The notes under the pieces were generated by a model. That model had not been told where the DNA came from. It worked only from the letters and a program-made list of their open reading frames with translations, and searched no databases. The position numbers were made by a program, and so were the translations under genes. A stretch of DNA of 64,000 nucleotides, from contig NZ_CP107921.1 in assembly GCF_036014215.1 (NCBI RefSeq), positions 7,623,501 through 7,687,500 of the forward strand. Reading direction: 5' to 3'. Numbering within the stretch: the stretch's first letter is position 1; the number at the start of each line of letters is the position of its first letter. Shown one piece after another: positions 47,422 through 63,093 of this stretch. The stretch comes from Streptomyces sp. NBC_00440. Lineage in GTDB: Bacteria; Actinomycetota; Actinomycetes; Streptomycetales; Streptomycetaceae.

Positions 47422-47436
47422 TCCCGGTGAGTGGGA
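47422..47436. promoter_or_regulatory. Motif B copy 1: TCCCGGTGAGTGGGA
   Basis: One of six related 15-bp sequences in the catabolic island, all in intergenic regions. It lies between the SDR and amidase genes, about 190 bases before the amidase start. Confidence 0.6.
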
Positions 47437-47570
47437 CGCGCCACTTCGTCGGTTGTCCTGGACCGTAACTTCCCCTCACCCCCGCTCCTCCGGTTCGTGC
47501 TGCGAGCCGCGTCACGACGACCGGGGGAACACGGCCGCAGCTGAACAGTGCCGCGCGGCGAGCCGCGTTC

Positions 47571-47598
47571 GCCCACCAGGACCTCCTTCCTGGCGGGC
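47571..47598 (+). promoter_or_regulatory. Leader hairpin with anti-Shine-Dalgarno loop before the amidase
   Basis: GCCCACCAGGA (47571-47581) pairs with TCCTGGCGGGC (47588-47598) with one mismatch, leaving the loop CCTCCT. That loop is the exact complement of the AGGAGG ribosome site at 47614-47619 of the amidase gene. A pseudoknot or competing helix could hide the ribosome site. Confidence 0.35.
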
Positions 47599-47624
47599 AG
47601 GTGTCCGAGTGTGAGGAGGAGTCA

Positions 47625-49028
47625 GTGGCCGACAGATGGGACGCCGTCGCGACGGCGGCCGCGATCGCAGACGGCGAGACGAGCGATCGCGCCGTGATCG
47701 AGGCCGCCATCGCCCGGATCGAGAACAGCAACGGCGAACTCAACGCCGTCATCCACACACGCTTCGACGAGGCCCTTGCCGAAGTGGACGCCGGGCTGCC
47801 CGACGGGCCGCTGCGCGGGGTGCCGGTCCTGGTCAAGGACCTCGGTACCGAGGTCGCCGGGCTGCCGGCCAGCGGCGGCAGCCGGCTCTTCGCCGAGGAC
47901 GTCCCCACGCGCGACAGCGAACTCGTCCAGCGCTACCGGCGAGCCGGCATGGTCGTCCTCGGAACCACCAACACTCCCGAACTCGGCCTCAACGCCAGCA
48001 CCGAACCGGCGCTGTACGGCCCCACCCACAACCCGTGGAGCCCTGCGCACTCGCCCGGCGGGTCGAGCGGGGGATCGGCGGCCGCGGTGAGCGCCGGGAT
48101 GGTTCCCGTCGCCCACGCCAGCGACGGCGGCGGCTCCATCCGCATCCCCTCGGCCGCCTGCGGACTGTTCGGCCTCAAGCCCAGTCGCGGCCGGGTGTCC
48201 CCCGCGCCGCGGCCCACCACCCTGTCCGGTCTGGTCTCGGTCCACCACGCCGTCACCACGACGGTGCGCGACAGCGCGCTGCTCCTCGACATCGCCGCAG
48301 GCCGGCTCCCGGGCGACGCCTATGCGGCGCCGGTCCCGGCCGACTCGTTCACCGCCTGCGCACGGCGTGACCCGGGACGGCTGCGGATCGGGCTGATCAC
48401 CTCGCTGCCGGGCGGTGTCGCCGTGCATCCGGAGCCGCTGCGGGCCGTGCTCGACGCCGCCCGGGTGTGCGAGGAACTCGGCCACGAGGTCACCGAGGCG
48501 ACGGCTCCGTACCGGCCGGACGAGGTGGGCGCTGCCTCCGCGGTGCTGATGGGTGCCGATCTGGTCGTACAGGTGGACGCCCGTCTCGACCGGCTCGGCC
48601 GGCCGCTGGCCGACGACGACATCGAACCCTTCACCCGGGTGCTCTACGAGCATTACCGGACCCTCACCGGCGCCGACGTCAGCCGCGCTCTGCGGCGCGC
48701 GCAGGAGATCGGCTGGGAGGTCGGCGCGGCCTTCACGACGTACGACGTACTGCTCGGCCCCACACTCGCGCAGCCGACGCCCCGGCTGGGAGTCCTCGAC
48801 ACGCGCCGCCCGGAGACCATCTACGAACACGCCGCCGTCCACTCCGCGTTCACCAGCGTCTACAACGTCACCGGTATGCCGGCGATGTCCGTCCCCTCCG
48901 GGTACGACGGCGAAGGACTTCCGCTGGGCGCCCAGTTCGCCGCCGATCTCGGCGGTGAGGGGCTGCTGCTCGGTCTGGCGGCGCAGTTGGAACGCGCCGC
49001 ACCGTGGCGGGTCACCGCGCACGGCTGA
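47625..49028 (+). CDS. Amidase-signature enzyme of the catabolic island
   Basis: A 467-residue amidase. Catalytic triad K71 (VPVLVKDLG), S147 (SPGGSSGGSAA), S171 (DGGGSIRIPSA), with the canonical 24-residue serine spacing. Closest in look to 6-aminohexanoate-cyclic-dimer hydrolase-type and related amidases. The GTG at 47625 has GAGGAGGA five bases upstream. It is followed 128 bases later by an MFS transporter, and both belong to the island's regulated plus-strand genes, suggesting that the island's natural substrate has an amide or is imported with one. Confidence 0.88.
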   Translation: MADRWDAVATAAAIADGETSDRAVIEAAIARIENSNGELNAVIHTRFDEALAEVDAGLPDGPLRGVPVLVKDLGTEVAGLPASGGSRLFAEDVPTRDSELVQRYRRAGMVVLGTTNTPELGLNASTEPALYGPTHNPWSPAHSPGGSSGGSAAAVSAGMVPVAHASDGGGSIRIPSAACGLFGLKPSRGRVSPAPRPTTLSGLVSVHHAVTTTVRDSALLLDIAAGRLPGDAYAAPVPADSFTACARRDPGRLRIGLITSLPGGVAVHPEPLRAVLDAARVCEELGHEVTEATAPYRPDEVGAASAVLMGADLVVQVDARLDRLGRPLADDDIEPFTRVLYEHYRTLTGADVSRALRRAQEIGWEVGAAFTTYDVLLGPTLAQPTPRLGVLDTRRPETIYEHAAVHSAFTSVYNVTGMPAMSVPSGYDGEGLPLGAQFAADLGGEGLLLGLAAQLERAAPWRVTAHG

Positions 49029-49156
49029 GCGCCCACCCACCCCTGTCCCGCAGCGGCGCACCCCGGGGACGCGTTCTCCGGCCGTGGCTGCCGGGCCCGC
49101 GCCCCGGCCTGGGCACCGCCCAGTGACCCCGTCGGCACTCCTCAGTAAGGGATACG

Positions 49157-61204: not shown

Positions 61205-61246
61205 AACGAGACGGACGTGATGGACGTGACGGACGAGAGGGAGAAG

Positions 61247-62191
61247 ATGACGCAGATTCGAGGGCTGGGCTATCTCCGGGTACGGAGCCGGGACGTCACC
61301 CGCTGGCGCGAACTCACCGTGGACGCCCTCGGTTTCGCCGAGGGATCGGGCCCCGACCCGGAGGGCCTCTATCTCCGGATGGACGAGCGCCGGGCGCGGC
61401 TGGCCGTCCTGCCCGGTGAGAGCGACCGGGCCGAGGCCGTCGGCTGGGAGGTGCGCGACCAGTTCGCGCTGGCCGAGGTCGCCCGCACCGTCGAGGCCTC
61501 CGGCGCGGCGGTCAGGACGCTGACTCAGGAGGAGGCGGACGAACGCGGAGTGGAACAGGCCATCGCCTTCGACGACCCCGCCGGAGTCCCCGTAGAGGTC
61601 TTCTTCGGTCCCGTCCTGGACCACAGCCCCGTACTCACCGGGCTCGGGCAGCGCTTCGTCACCGGCGGCCAGGGCATGGGACACGTCGTTCTGCCCACCA
61701 CGCGCATGGACGAGAGCGTGTCCTTCTACACCGAGGTGCTCGGCTTCCTGCCGCGTGGTGCGGTGCGGATGAGCAGCCAGGCCCCGGAGGCTCCGCCGCG
61801 GCGCGTGCGTTTTCTGGGAGTCAACGAGCGCCACCACAGCCTGGCCCTCTGCCCTGCGCCGCACGGCGAGGCACCCGGTCTGGTCCACCTCATGGTCGAG
61901 GTGGACACCCTGGACTCGGTGGGACGCGCCCTCGACAACGTCGGACGGCTCGGCTTCCCGCTCTCCTCCACCCTGGGCCGCCACACCAACGACAAGATGA
62001 TCTCCTTCTACGTCCGCGCTCCCGGCGGCTGGGACGTCGAGTACGGCACCGACGGGATGCTCGTCGACGAGCGTGACTACACCGCCGAGGAGATCACAGC
62101 CGACAGCTACTGGGGCCACGACTGGTCGGGCTCGGAACCGCTCGCGGCGTTCTCGACGCCGGCCGGCAACAGGGGGGAAGCCCGTCCATGA
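61247..62191 (+). CDS. Extradiol ring-cleavage dioxygenase (HsaC/BphC type)
   Basis: A 314-residue type I extradiol dioxygenase with two VOC modules. The iron ligands are H146 (GQGMGHVVLP), H214 (GLVHLMVEV) and E265 (GWDVEYGT), close to BphC numbering; other active-site residues are seen in NERHHSLAL and DKMISFYVRAPGG. Start placed at 61247 with AGGGAG upstream; ATG at 61220 is possible. It cleaves a catechol next to a hydroxyl. It overlaps the following SDR gene by four bases. Confidence 0.92.
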   Translation: MTQIRGLGYLRVRSRDVTRWRELTVDALGFAEGSGPDPEGLYLRMDERRARLAVLPGESDRAEAVGWEVRDQFALAEVARTVEASGAAVRTLTQEEADERGVEQAIAFDDPAGVPVEVFFGPVLDHSPVLTGLGQRFVTGGQGMGHVVLPTTRMDESVSFYTEVLGFLPRGAVRMSSQAPEAPPRRVRFLGVNERHHSLALCPAPHGEAPGLVHLMVEVDTLDSVGRALDNVGRLGFPLSSTLGRHTNDKMISFYVRAPGGWDVEYGTDGMLVDERDYTAEEITADSYWGHDWSGSEPLAAFSTPAGNRGEARP

Positions 62192-62964
62192 CACGCCGTA
62201 CAGCCGTCAGCGGTGCCGCATCGGGCATCGGCAAGGCCCTGGTCCGACTGCTGCGGGCGCAGGGGGACGACGTCGTCGGAATCGACCTGAAGGACGCGGA
62301 GGTCTGCGCGGATCTCGGTACTCGTCAGGGGCGGCAGGACGCCGTGCGCGCCGTTCTCGAACGTACCGGAGGGACCCTGGACGCTGTGATCGCCTGTGCC
62401 GGCATCTCGGCCCGGGTCCCGGCCGCGGTCGCGGTCAACTTCTTCGGTGTCACCGAACTGCTCCAGGGGCTCAGGCCCGCACTGGCACGGGCCGATGCGC
62501 CCCGTGCGGCGTTCGTCGGTTCCATCGTCGGGACCAGATCCGGGGCGCCCGATGTCGTCGATGCCTGCCTCGCCGGGGACGAGACGGCGGCGCTCAGGGC
62601 GGCCGCAGCCGTCGCGGCCGCGGGCGAGGGCGGCACGCTGTACCCCGCGTCGAAGGCAGCCCTCGCCCGCTGGCTGCGCCGTACCAGCGTCACCGACGAG
62701 TGGGCCGCCGCCGGAATCCCACTGAACGCCGTCGGCCCCGGTGTGGTGCTGACCCCCATGCATGCCGCCCACGCGGTGACGGAAGAGCAGCGCAGGATCG
62801 TCGACCGGGCGGTGCCGATGCCGCTGGGCGGCCACGCGGGACCCGAGGTGATCGCGCGGGCGCTGCGGTGGCTGACCAGCGTGGAGAACACCCATGTGAC
62901 CGGCCAGGTGCTGTACGTCGACGGGGGTGCCGAGGCGGTGCTCCGCGGCCCGGACAAGATCTGA
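62188..62964 (+). CDS. Short-chain dehydrogenase/reductase
   Basis: A 258-residue SDR. SGAASGIGKAL (8-18) is the cofactor motif; D-L-K in VVGIDLKDAEV hints at NAD; IACAGISAR replaces NNAG; the Ser lies in VGSIVG and the Tyr-x3-Lys in LYPASKAALARWL. Compared with typical SDRs, the sequence between the N-terminal motif and NAG is shorter. It is coupled to the dioxygenase by ATGA. A hydroxysteroid or cyclic-alcohol dehydrogenase role would fit the island. Confidence 0.88.
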   Translation: MTRRTAVSGAASGIGKALVRLLRAQGDDVVGIDLKDAEVCADLGTRQGRQDAVRAVLERTGGTLDAVIACAGISARVPAAVAVNFFGVTELLQGLRPALARADAPRAAFVGSIVGTRSGAPDVVDACLAGDETAALRAAAAVAAAGEGGTLYPASKAALARWLRRTSVTDEWAAAGIPLNAVGPGVVLTPMHAAHAVTEEQRRIVDRAVPMPLGGHAGPEVIARALRWLTSVENTHVTGQVLYVDGGAEAVLRGPDKI

Positions 62965-63048
62965 GCGGCCGACAGATCCGAGCGGCCGACGAGACGCGAG
63001 CGACTCCGGCCGGGGCGGCGGGAGCCGTGGCGCGGGCCCGGACGGCGG

Positions 63049-63093
63049 CCCCACTCAGTGGGACTGCCGTTGCCAATTGCCAGAATGAATTCT
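63049..63093. promoter_or_regulatory. Motif B copy 6 with motif A site 3 upstream of the thiolase gene
   Basis: CCCCACTCAGTGGGA (63049-63063; its core CCCACT-C-AGTGGG is a perfect palindrome) is followed 18 bases later by AGAATGAATTCT (63082-63093). Both motif types therefore meet in one 190-base gap, 60 bases before the thiolase start. Confidence 0.65.

Follow-up and report, generated by a model that had tools for sequence, protein, structure and literature searches.

A 15-bp palindrome before steroid-degradation operons of Streptomyces and its candidate IclR-family reader

A stretch of 64,000 nucleotides from Streptomyces sp. NBC_00440 (contig NZ_CP107921.1, positions 7,623,501 to 7,687,500; here called the window) contains part of a catabolic island in which operon starts are preceded by a 15-bp palindrome with a one-base centre, of the general form TCCCGNTSANCGGGA and here called motif B. 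By its gene content the island is a 9,10-seco steroid-degradation cluster. We consider it probable, with fair assurance, that motif B serves as the operator for one clade of IclR-family regulators, which govern the aerobic breakdown of steroids by the 9,10-seco route, likely as activators bound near -50. In the mechanism proposed, in which binding, the sign of regulation, and the effector are inferred, the IclR protein encoded at 52562 would read the sites of the cholate-type island, while its paralogue at C1:208454 would read the pair of sites in a compact kstD/hsa/ksh cluster at another place in the genome. A steroid-derived signal would lead the IclR protein, bound immediately upstream of the polymerase, to activate transcription rather than to repress it, with each promoter having its own copy of motif B.

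Distribution and conservation of motif B

The sites, their spacing, their conservation, and their co-occurrence with the IclR clade were established by computation. Six near-palindromes listed in an earlier note on this DNA are all present in the window, and open reading frame calls together with Pfam matches place every one of them between genes. The site at 47422-47436 (+ strand, TCCCGGTGAGTGGGA) lies in the amidase promoter and is followed, 37 bp from its centre, by the -10-like sequence TAACTT (47466-47471). The sequence TCCCGCTGATCGGGA occurs twice, at 52398-52412 (- strand) in the LLM-oxidoreductase promoter and at 54233-54247 (+ strand) before the HsaD-like hydrolase operon; the identity of these two copies was recognised earlier and, with a flanking TG, extends to 17 bp. 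The first has TACGAA 39 bp from its centre, with one mismatch to TANNNT, and the second has TACGTT at 38 bp. The flavin reductase promoter contains TCCCGATGAGTGGAA at 54163-54177 (- strand) with TACCGT at 37 bp, and both this site and the one at 54233 are conserved in relatives. A perfect palindrome, TCCCGCTCAGCGGGA, at 57929-57943 (+ strand) precedes the run of HsaG-, HsaF-, HsaA-, and HsaC-like genes and has CACGTT at 37 bp, again with one mismatch. The weakest of the six, CCCCACTCAGTGGGA at 63049-63063 (+ strand), precedes the gene for the steroid thiolase and has, 37 bp from its centre, TATTTC, which does not fit TANNNT.

The earlier description of the family as six copies private to the island has to be widened on both counts. 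The island spans 40.4 kb and continues about 22 kb beyond the end of the window, where four more strong copies lie at 69947, 69990, 70923, and 85252 in extended coordinates (the numbering used past the window end). Five of the ten strong island copies fit the exact pattern, those at 54163, 69947, and 85252 have one difference, and those at 63049 and 69990 have two. Two divergent intergenic regions contain paired sites, 54163 with 54233 and 69947 with 69990, so that the inter-site distances in the island are 70 and 43 bp. Motif B also occurs in a second steroid cluster 7.5 Mb from the island and in the clusters of other genera.

The distribution in the genome was obtained from pattern searches with TCCCGNTSAKYGGGA, exact or with one mismatch. 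The exact pattern is found in ten places: five in the island (four inside the window and one lying 6.9 kb past its end), two in the second steroid cluster, and three elsewhere, two of which are inside long open frames. The binomial probability of five of ten exact matches falling in the island is 5e-10. A matrix was built from nine motif B sites of the genome, the exact copy at 70923 already among them; it adds the island copies at 69947, 69990, and 85252, plus one outside the island at 34380. Applied to 36 stretches of our own selection (1.07 Mb, own sites included), from which the -10 counts given below were also taken, the matrix finds 93 sites of at least 17 bits. If a site no more than 30 bp from the end of a gene is counted as intergenic, 85 of the 93 lie between genes, though only 14% of the bases do. 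Chance or base composition is excluded as the source of these matches, since 12 permuted matrices give 0-3 sites each in the same stretches. The named loci examined further are the best 80 of 534, with taxa grouped from record titles; at the same threshold 46 of them have at least one site (77 sites in total), compared to 0-8 for six permuted matrices. Sites are present in 11 of 13 Streptomyces loci, 10 of 10 from Nocardia, 3 of 5 from Rhodococcus, 14 of 42 from mycobacteria, and 8 of 10 others. In the 19 loci that were drawn out, sites stand ahead of kshA-, hsaA-, kstD-, or hsaD-like genes, among others, and one of the 19, L175, has no motif B site. A locus from a metagenome-assembled genome of Acidobacteriota (L161) has a site 123 bp before its IclR match, although a binning error is possible.

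In seven relatives within the genus, motif B stands at operon starts and tracks them through rearrangements. The site pair of the divergent flavin reductase/HsaD promoter is kept in 5/5 relatives with both genes in the stretch, and the site of the KshA gene (PF19298) in 5/5 despite its changed place and orientation. At the CoA-ligase operon, the site precedes the next gene in three relatives that do not have the first gene there. The conservation upstream of orthologous genes that the earlier note anticipated is present overall: across the seven relatives, a site was found in 21 of 44 ortholog comparisons for genes that have their own site in NBC_00440, leaving 23 of 44 with none, and in 11 of 89 comparisons for other genes (P 1.4e-5). 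Twelve more stretches from ten genomes, containing IclR homologues of 50-61% identity, all have cluster sites with scores above 14. In a further family, f7, island genes and motif B are found together in 5/5 genomes.

The candidate IclR reader and its promoters

The protein encoded at 52562-53452 (+ strand) matches HTH_IclR with 49.7 bits and IclR_C with 119 bits, above the respective cutoffs of 22 and 24. It does not belong to any of the named subfamilies examined (PcaR/PcaU/PobR, KdgR, IclR, AllR, and BhcR): the best NCBIfam match scores 113.6 bits where the cutoff is 284.75, and the remaining four models are likewise below cutoff. In both IclR proteins of the Streptomyces type, this one and that at L024:10455-11318, a conserved tail (MD...W) extends beyond IclR_C; alignment rows of the mycobacterial type do not have it, but since these rows stop where the match ends, part of the difference may be an artefact.

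The earlier proposal of a single regulon read by this protein is supported by comparative evidence, namely clade co-occurrence and conservation, and concerns predicted binding. In a tree of 57 of 60 IclR proteins (loci L080-L082 were dropped as too short), a clade of 40 members includes 25 with a motif B site within 1.5 kb, while only 1 of 17 outside the clade has one. The eight members of the window protein's own branch with no site that close all have sites within about 10 kb, and among the mycobacterial-type members of the clade 7/8 have none within 1.5 kb. A hand tally of 392 genomes of the genus, 49 of which have a close IclR homologue at E<=1e-40, found exact TCCCGCTSAKYGGGA in 42 of those 49.

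The second steroid cluster, at C1:203-215 kb, has the same association in minimal form. Its genes are KstD-, HsaB-, HsaC-, HsaD-, and HsaA-like, an IclR gene, KshB-like, KshA, and HsaF-, HsaG-, and HsaE-like; a single IclR protein is accompanied by two operon promoters with one exact site apiece, ahead of the HsaA-like and HsaE-like operon starts. The IclR protein at C1:208454 is the closest paralogue found of the window protein (44% identity), and at E<=1e-30 the genome has only two matches to the window protein, each in a steroid cluster with motif B; in both respects 6 of 64 candidates were scored.

The promoters that follow motif B have a restricted geometry. TANNNT stands 37-40 bp from the motif centre in 50 of 117 promoter-direction cases and nowhere else within 25-66 bp, compared to 2 of 51 cases in the opposite direction. 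In NBC_00440 itself the box is at 37 or 38 bp in the promoters of the amidase, flavin reductase, HsaD, OYE, and KshA genes and at 40 in both cluster-2 promoters, while the LLM, acetaldehyde dehydrogenase (AcDH), and thiolase promoters are near misses at 37-39. The motif centre would thus lie at about -49 to -52 from the transcription start. When the 50 cases were reduced to 36 de-duplicated promoters, no -35-like signal was found anywhere from the site to the -10 region. The near-fixed distance to the -10 element, together with the missing conserved -35, points to an activator bound at about -50; promoters in Streptomyces often have no clear -35, however, which tempers this sign. Spacing also follows the type of IclR protein: 30 of 30 are at 37-38 bp in loci with the window type and 19 of 20 at 39-40 in those with the other type, corresponding by our estimate to about eight and four distinct promoters. 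This suggests that each type may need its own spacing. Outside the count of 30, five window-type sites of family f7 have the box at 37-38, and one of these also has one at 40.

Several observations weigh against this reading of motif B. The island enrichment that the earlier note expected from a genome scan holds for exact matches, but matches with one mismatch allowed are not specific to the island, which has 8 of the 70 forward ones (the reversed pattern gives 17 genome-wide), most of them lying outside the clusters. The copy at 34380-34394 (no strand assigned), inside the window, outside the island, and intergenic, is a good match with no link to steroid genes and has no -10 at the usual distance, and the exact site at 57929 was not found before the AcDH gene in five relatives. 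Exact TCCCGCTSAKYGGGA occurs in 114 of the 343 genomes that do not have a close IclR homologue. Mycobacterial loci are poor in motif B, as the count of 14 in 42 shows, and many have a different palindrome, ATTCCTAATAGGAAT or similar, directly before iclR. In Nocardioides simplex, according to PMC7593942, no site for a motif of the same form was calculated for the kshB gene of cluster D. As to geometry, over half of the promoter-direction cases do not have TANNNT, some of them being the far sides of divergent promoters; the element is absent at the sites 57929, 63049, 69947, and 69990, the last two with no clear box at all; and of the 25 sites in family f7 that score above 15 bits, only 5 have it at 37-40 bp. 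The f7 box at 40 bp (G1114) means that the rule of 37-38 is not strict. The range for the -10 box was initially set from the genome of NBC_00440 itself, and the counts are not independent, because orthologous loci were compared.

Of the alternatives, the one that survives best keeps the IclR protein as reader and changes the sign, so that it would act as a repressor blocking the polymerase when steroid is absent. Many IclR proteins are repressors, the edges of motif B sites extend to about -42, and a cluster-2 site that ends 20 bp ahead of its own iclR start fits autorepression. Against this, the distance to the -10, where found, varies by just 4 bp and there is no conserved -35, so that the promoters look activator-dependent; we regard repression as unlikely, though it deserves some weight.

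A different regulator, the KstR3/KstR-like TetR protein of the island (extended 82872-83489), could instead read motif B. It lies within the island, and a homologue is present in 18 of 24 stretches with the window-type IclR (4/7, 9/12, and 5/5 in the three sets, some of which may end early). The orthologue of KstR3 in Nocardioides simplex (KR76_18060) has been named as the presumptive factor for the corresponding motif, with further research said to be needed (Shtratnikova 2020). Contrary evidence comes from 23 genomes of the genus with only a more distant type of IclR (ten assigned to this second type by the tree and 13 by identity only): all 23 have at least one exact motif, yet none has a cluster-type copy of the TetR gene (up to 112 candidates scored in each), and the sole TetR homologue, at 34-38% identity, is either on a different contig or no closer than 0.38 Mb to the IclR gene. 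Among 28 genomes searched with the TetR protein, one (G103) has a window-type IclR with a site on each side and only a distant TetR homologue. No TetR gene is found in the IclR-containing part of cluster 2 or anywhere in L105, a relative with a complete cluster and two sites, where the IclR protein is the only regulator among 14 called genes (4.4-19.1 kb, Pfam). Because the 23 genomes have the motif and no cluster TetR, and because L105 has the IclR protein only, the IclR protein is left as the best candidate reader, and reading by the TetR protein is improbable.

Least probable of all is a source of another kind, either an unlinked third regulator or a structural element rich in G and C, such as a terminator hairpin or a chance sequence, which might account for the exact copies in genomes without the IclR protein but not for sites that lie upstream of promoters, often at fixed spacing from the -10, that are rare for permuted matrices, and that co-occur with the IclR protein at the level of the clade. 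A terminator-like hairpin is ruled out by the form of the 15-mer with its one-base centre, its place upstream of promoters, and the lack of a T run at the inspected sites.

Relation to known steroid regulators

Motif B itself is not new. A motif named Lcin1, TCCCGGT[C/G]ACCGGGA, was predicted by footprinting in the lithocholate-induced cholate cluster E of Nocardioides simplex VKM Ac-2033D, before genes of the cholate cluster and a kshA and, in another part of that genome, before an hsaEGF-type operon (PMC7593942). Its consensus is an instance of motif B, and its exact sequence occurs here at extended 69947; the sites in NBC_00440 likewise precede HsaB-, HsaD-, and KshA-like operons. The two accounts differ in that the reader of Lcin1 was guessed to be the KstR3 orthologue, the main text of that paper making no mention of IclR (PMC7593942), and in that the present account adds a promoter geometry. 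According to the same group, there seems to be one more factor, as yet undetected, for other operons induced by steroids (PMC7807495). Among the papers listed by searches of a limited open-access literature, none was seen that assigns motif B to an IclR protein. As far as these searches show, it is new that the motif is assigned to an IclR protein, with controls, and that a promoter layout, a system of two paralogues, and its spread are described. If correct, the assignment would give the question of the Lcin1 reader a concrete candidate, an operator, and a promoter layout that can be tested, and would add a new switch responsive to steroids, of use in biosensors and in strain engineering.

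The operators of KstR and KstR2 are sequences other than the GC-rich, IclR-type motif B. Steroid and bile-acid breakdown in actinobacteria has been described as being under these two regulators, whose regulons cover the same kind of pathway but which are TetR repressors (PMC6678751, PMC7807495). The definitions of KstR3 and CasA follow citations by other papers. A wider picture, in which IclR activators in many actinobacterial families, and possibly in an Acidobacteriota genome, constitute a third steroid regulon beside those of KstR and KstR2, with two paralogues that share one operator but are separated by a promoter shift of 2 bp (mostly 37-38 bp to the -10 for one and 39-40 bp for the other), and with a layer of TetR and motif A (described below) above iclR in the cholate-type island, is tentative and less likely than not to hold in full.

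Among IclR operators in general, those of group 1 (Suvorova and Gelfand 2021, PMC8222616) are likewise 15-bp odd palindromes, with a TYCRY-W3-RYGRA core. Compared by eye with the group-1 form KTYCRYWWWRYGRAM, motif B agrees at 12 of 15 positions and differs at positions 2, 8, and 14; it has C at position 2, where group 1 has T, and its centre is S. The usual inter-site distance in group 1 is 18-22 nt, unlike the distances in the island, and the main text of PMC8222616 does not mention steroid. The palindrome ATTCCTAATAGGAAT (also ATGACTAATAGTCAT), found 45-113 bp before the iclR orthologue in L110, L137, L153, and other mycobacterial or rhodococcal loci, is close to the GenR-type ATTCC-N5-GGAAT listed in the same source; it is a different palindrome from motif B.

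A steroid island in Pimelobacter simplex has a comparable set of regulators, with the TetR protein SRTF1 beside kstD and the IclR protein SRTF2 beside another kstD (PMC7062782). SRTF1 binds upstream of the gene for SRTF2, as the reader of motif A might here. The KstR/KstR3-like TetR protein at L026:1376-1990 (- strand) is divergent from a KstD-like gene, as described for SRTF1; its best match in the PDB is 3bjb (E 1e-52), with KstR at 1.6e-21, and no chain named SRTF1 is among the best 60 of 73 PDB matches.

Motif A and the genes of the island

The earlier note also included the SDR gene at 46481-47275 (- strand) in the motif B circuit. The promoters of the SDR and IclR genes have, close to their starts, a different, AT-rich palindromic sequence, motif A, and the nearest motif B copies do not have the -10 spacing in that direction. 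Motif A is present at 47331-47350 (+ strand, AAACAGAATGAATTCTGTTT) in the SDR promoter, at 52530-52539 (- strand, core AATGAATTCT), 22 bp upstream of the start of iclR, where it is kept in close relatives, and at 63081-63097 (+ strand, CAGAATGAATTCTATTT), where it overlaps the thiolase -10 region downstream of the motif B site at 63049. These three are the exact AATGAATTCT cores in the window, compared to 0.01 expected. One further relative with three mismatches (L023:18201-18217) precedes an SDR gene at extended 79.7 kb. Of 8 close relatives, 7 keep the core near iclR; 4 of 5 f7 genomes have it before that gene, and 0 of 21 further loci have it. Motif A was rejected as a copy of motif B, the sequences being unrelated. 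Possibly the KstR-like TetR protein of the island uses motif A as its operator, which would place this protein above the IclR protein. By eye, the layout of motif A resembles that of the KstR operator; motif A is absent from the promoter of the TetR gene itself.

The window has a G+C content of 70%. On the amidase side, the island includes the genes for the amidase (47601-49028, +), an MFS transporter (49157-50701, +), a SnoaL-like protein (50830-51429, -), and a luciferase-like (LLM) monooxygenase (51460-52314, -), all identified by Pfam. Beyond the IclR gene lies a flavin reductase (53480-54070, -) that is HsaB-like by Pfam and place only, followed by the HsaD-like hydrolase (54321-55187, +), for which HsaD is the best NCBIfam model at 271 bits, below the cutoff of 400. 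The KstD-like FAD dehydrogenase (55184-56845, +) is above the cutoff of NF009473, the next models being ketosteroid dehydrogenases below cutoff. Next are the KshB-like ferredoxin reductase (56875-57906, +), the HsaG-like acetaldehyde dehydrogenase (58017-58925, +), the HsaF-like aldolase (58947-60011, +), the HsaA-like monooxygenase (60020-61204, +) with 382 bits and the HsaC-like extradiol dioxygenase (61220-62191, +) with 343 bits (both below the NCBIfam cutoff of 450), and a second SDR (62188-62964, +). The steroid 3-ketoacyl-CoA thiolase (63154-64000, +) is above its NCBIfam cutoff and continues past the window end. Beyond that end are acyl-CoA dehydrogenases, hydratases, CoA ligases, and ChsH2- and thiolase-like genes for side-chain removal, as well as the KstR-like TetR gene, a second KstD-like gene, and KshA. 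This gene content, together with the clusters published for Nocardioides simplex, makes a substrate of the cholate or bile-acid type probable.

One product of the island has a Pfam domain named after RHA1_ro05818. A small cysteine-containing protein of 66-75 amino acids with no Pfam match is encoded at L024:12458-12658 and has orthologues in L099, L104, and L121; in L024 and L099 its gene lies between kshA and kshB.

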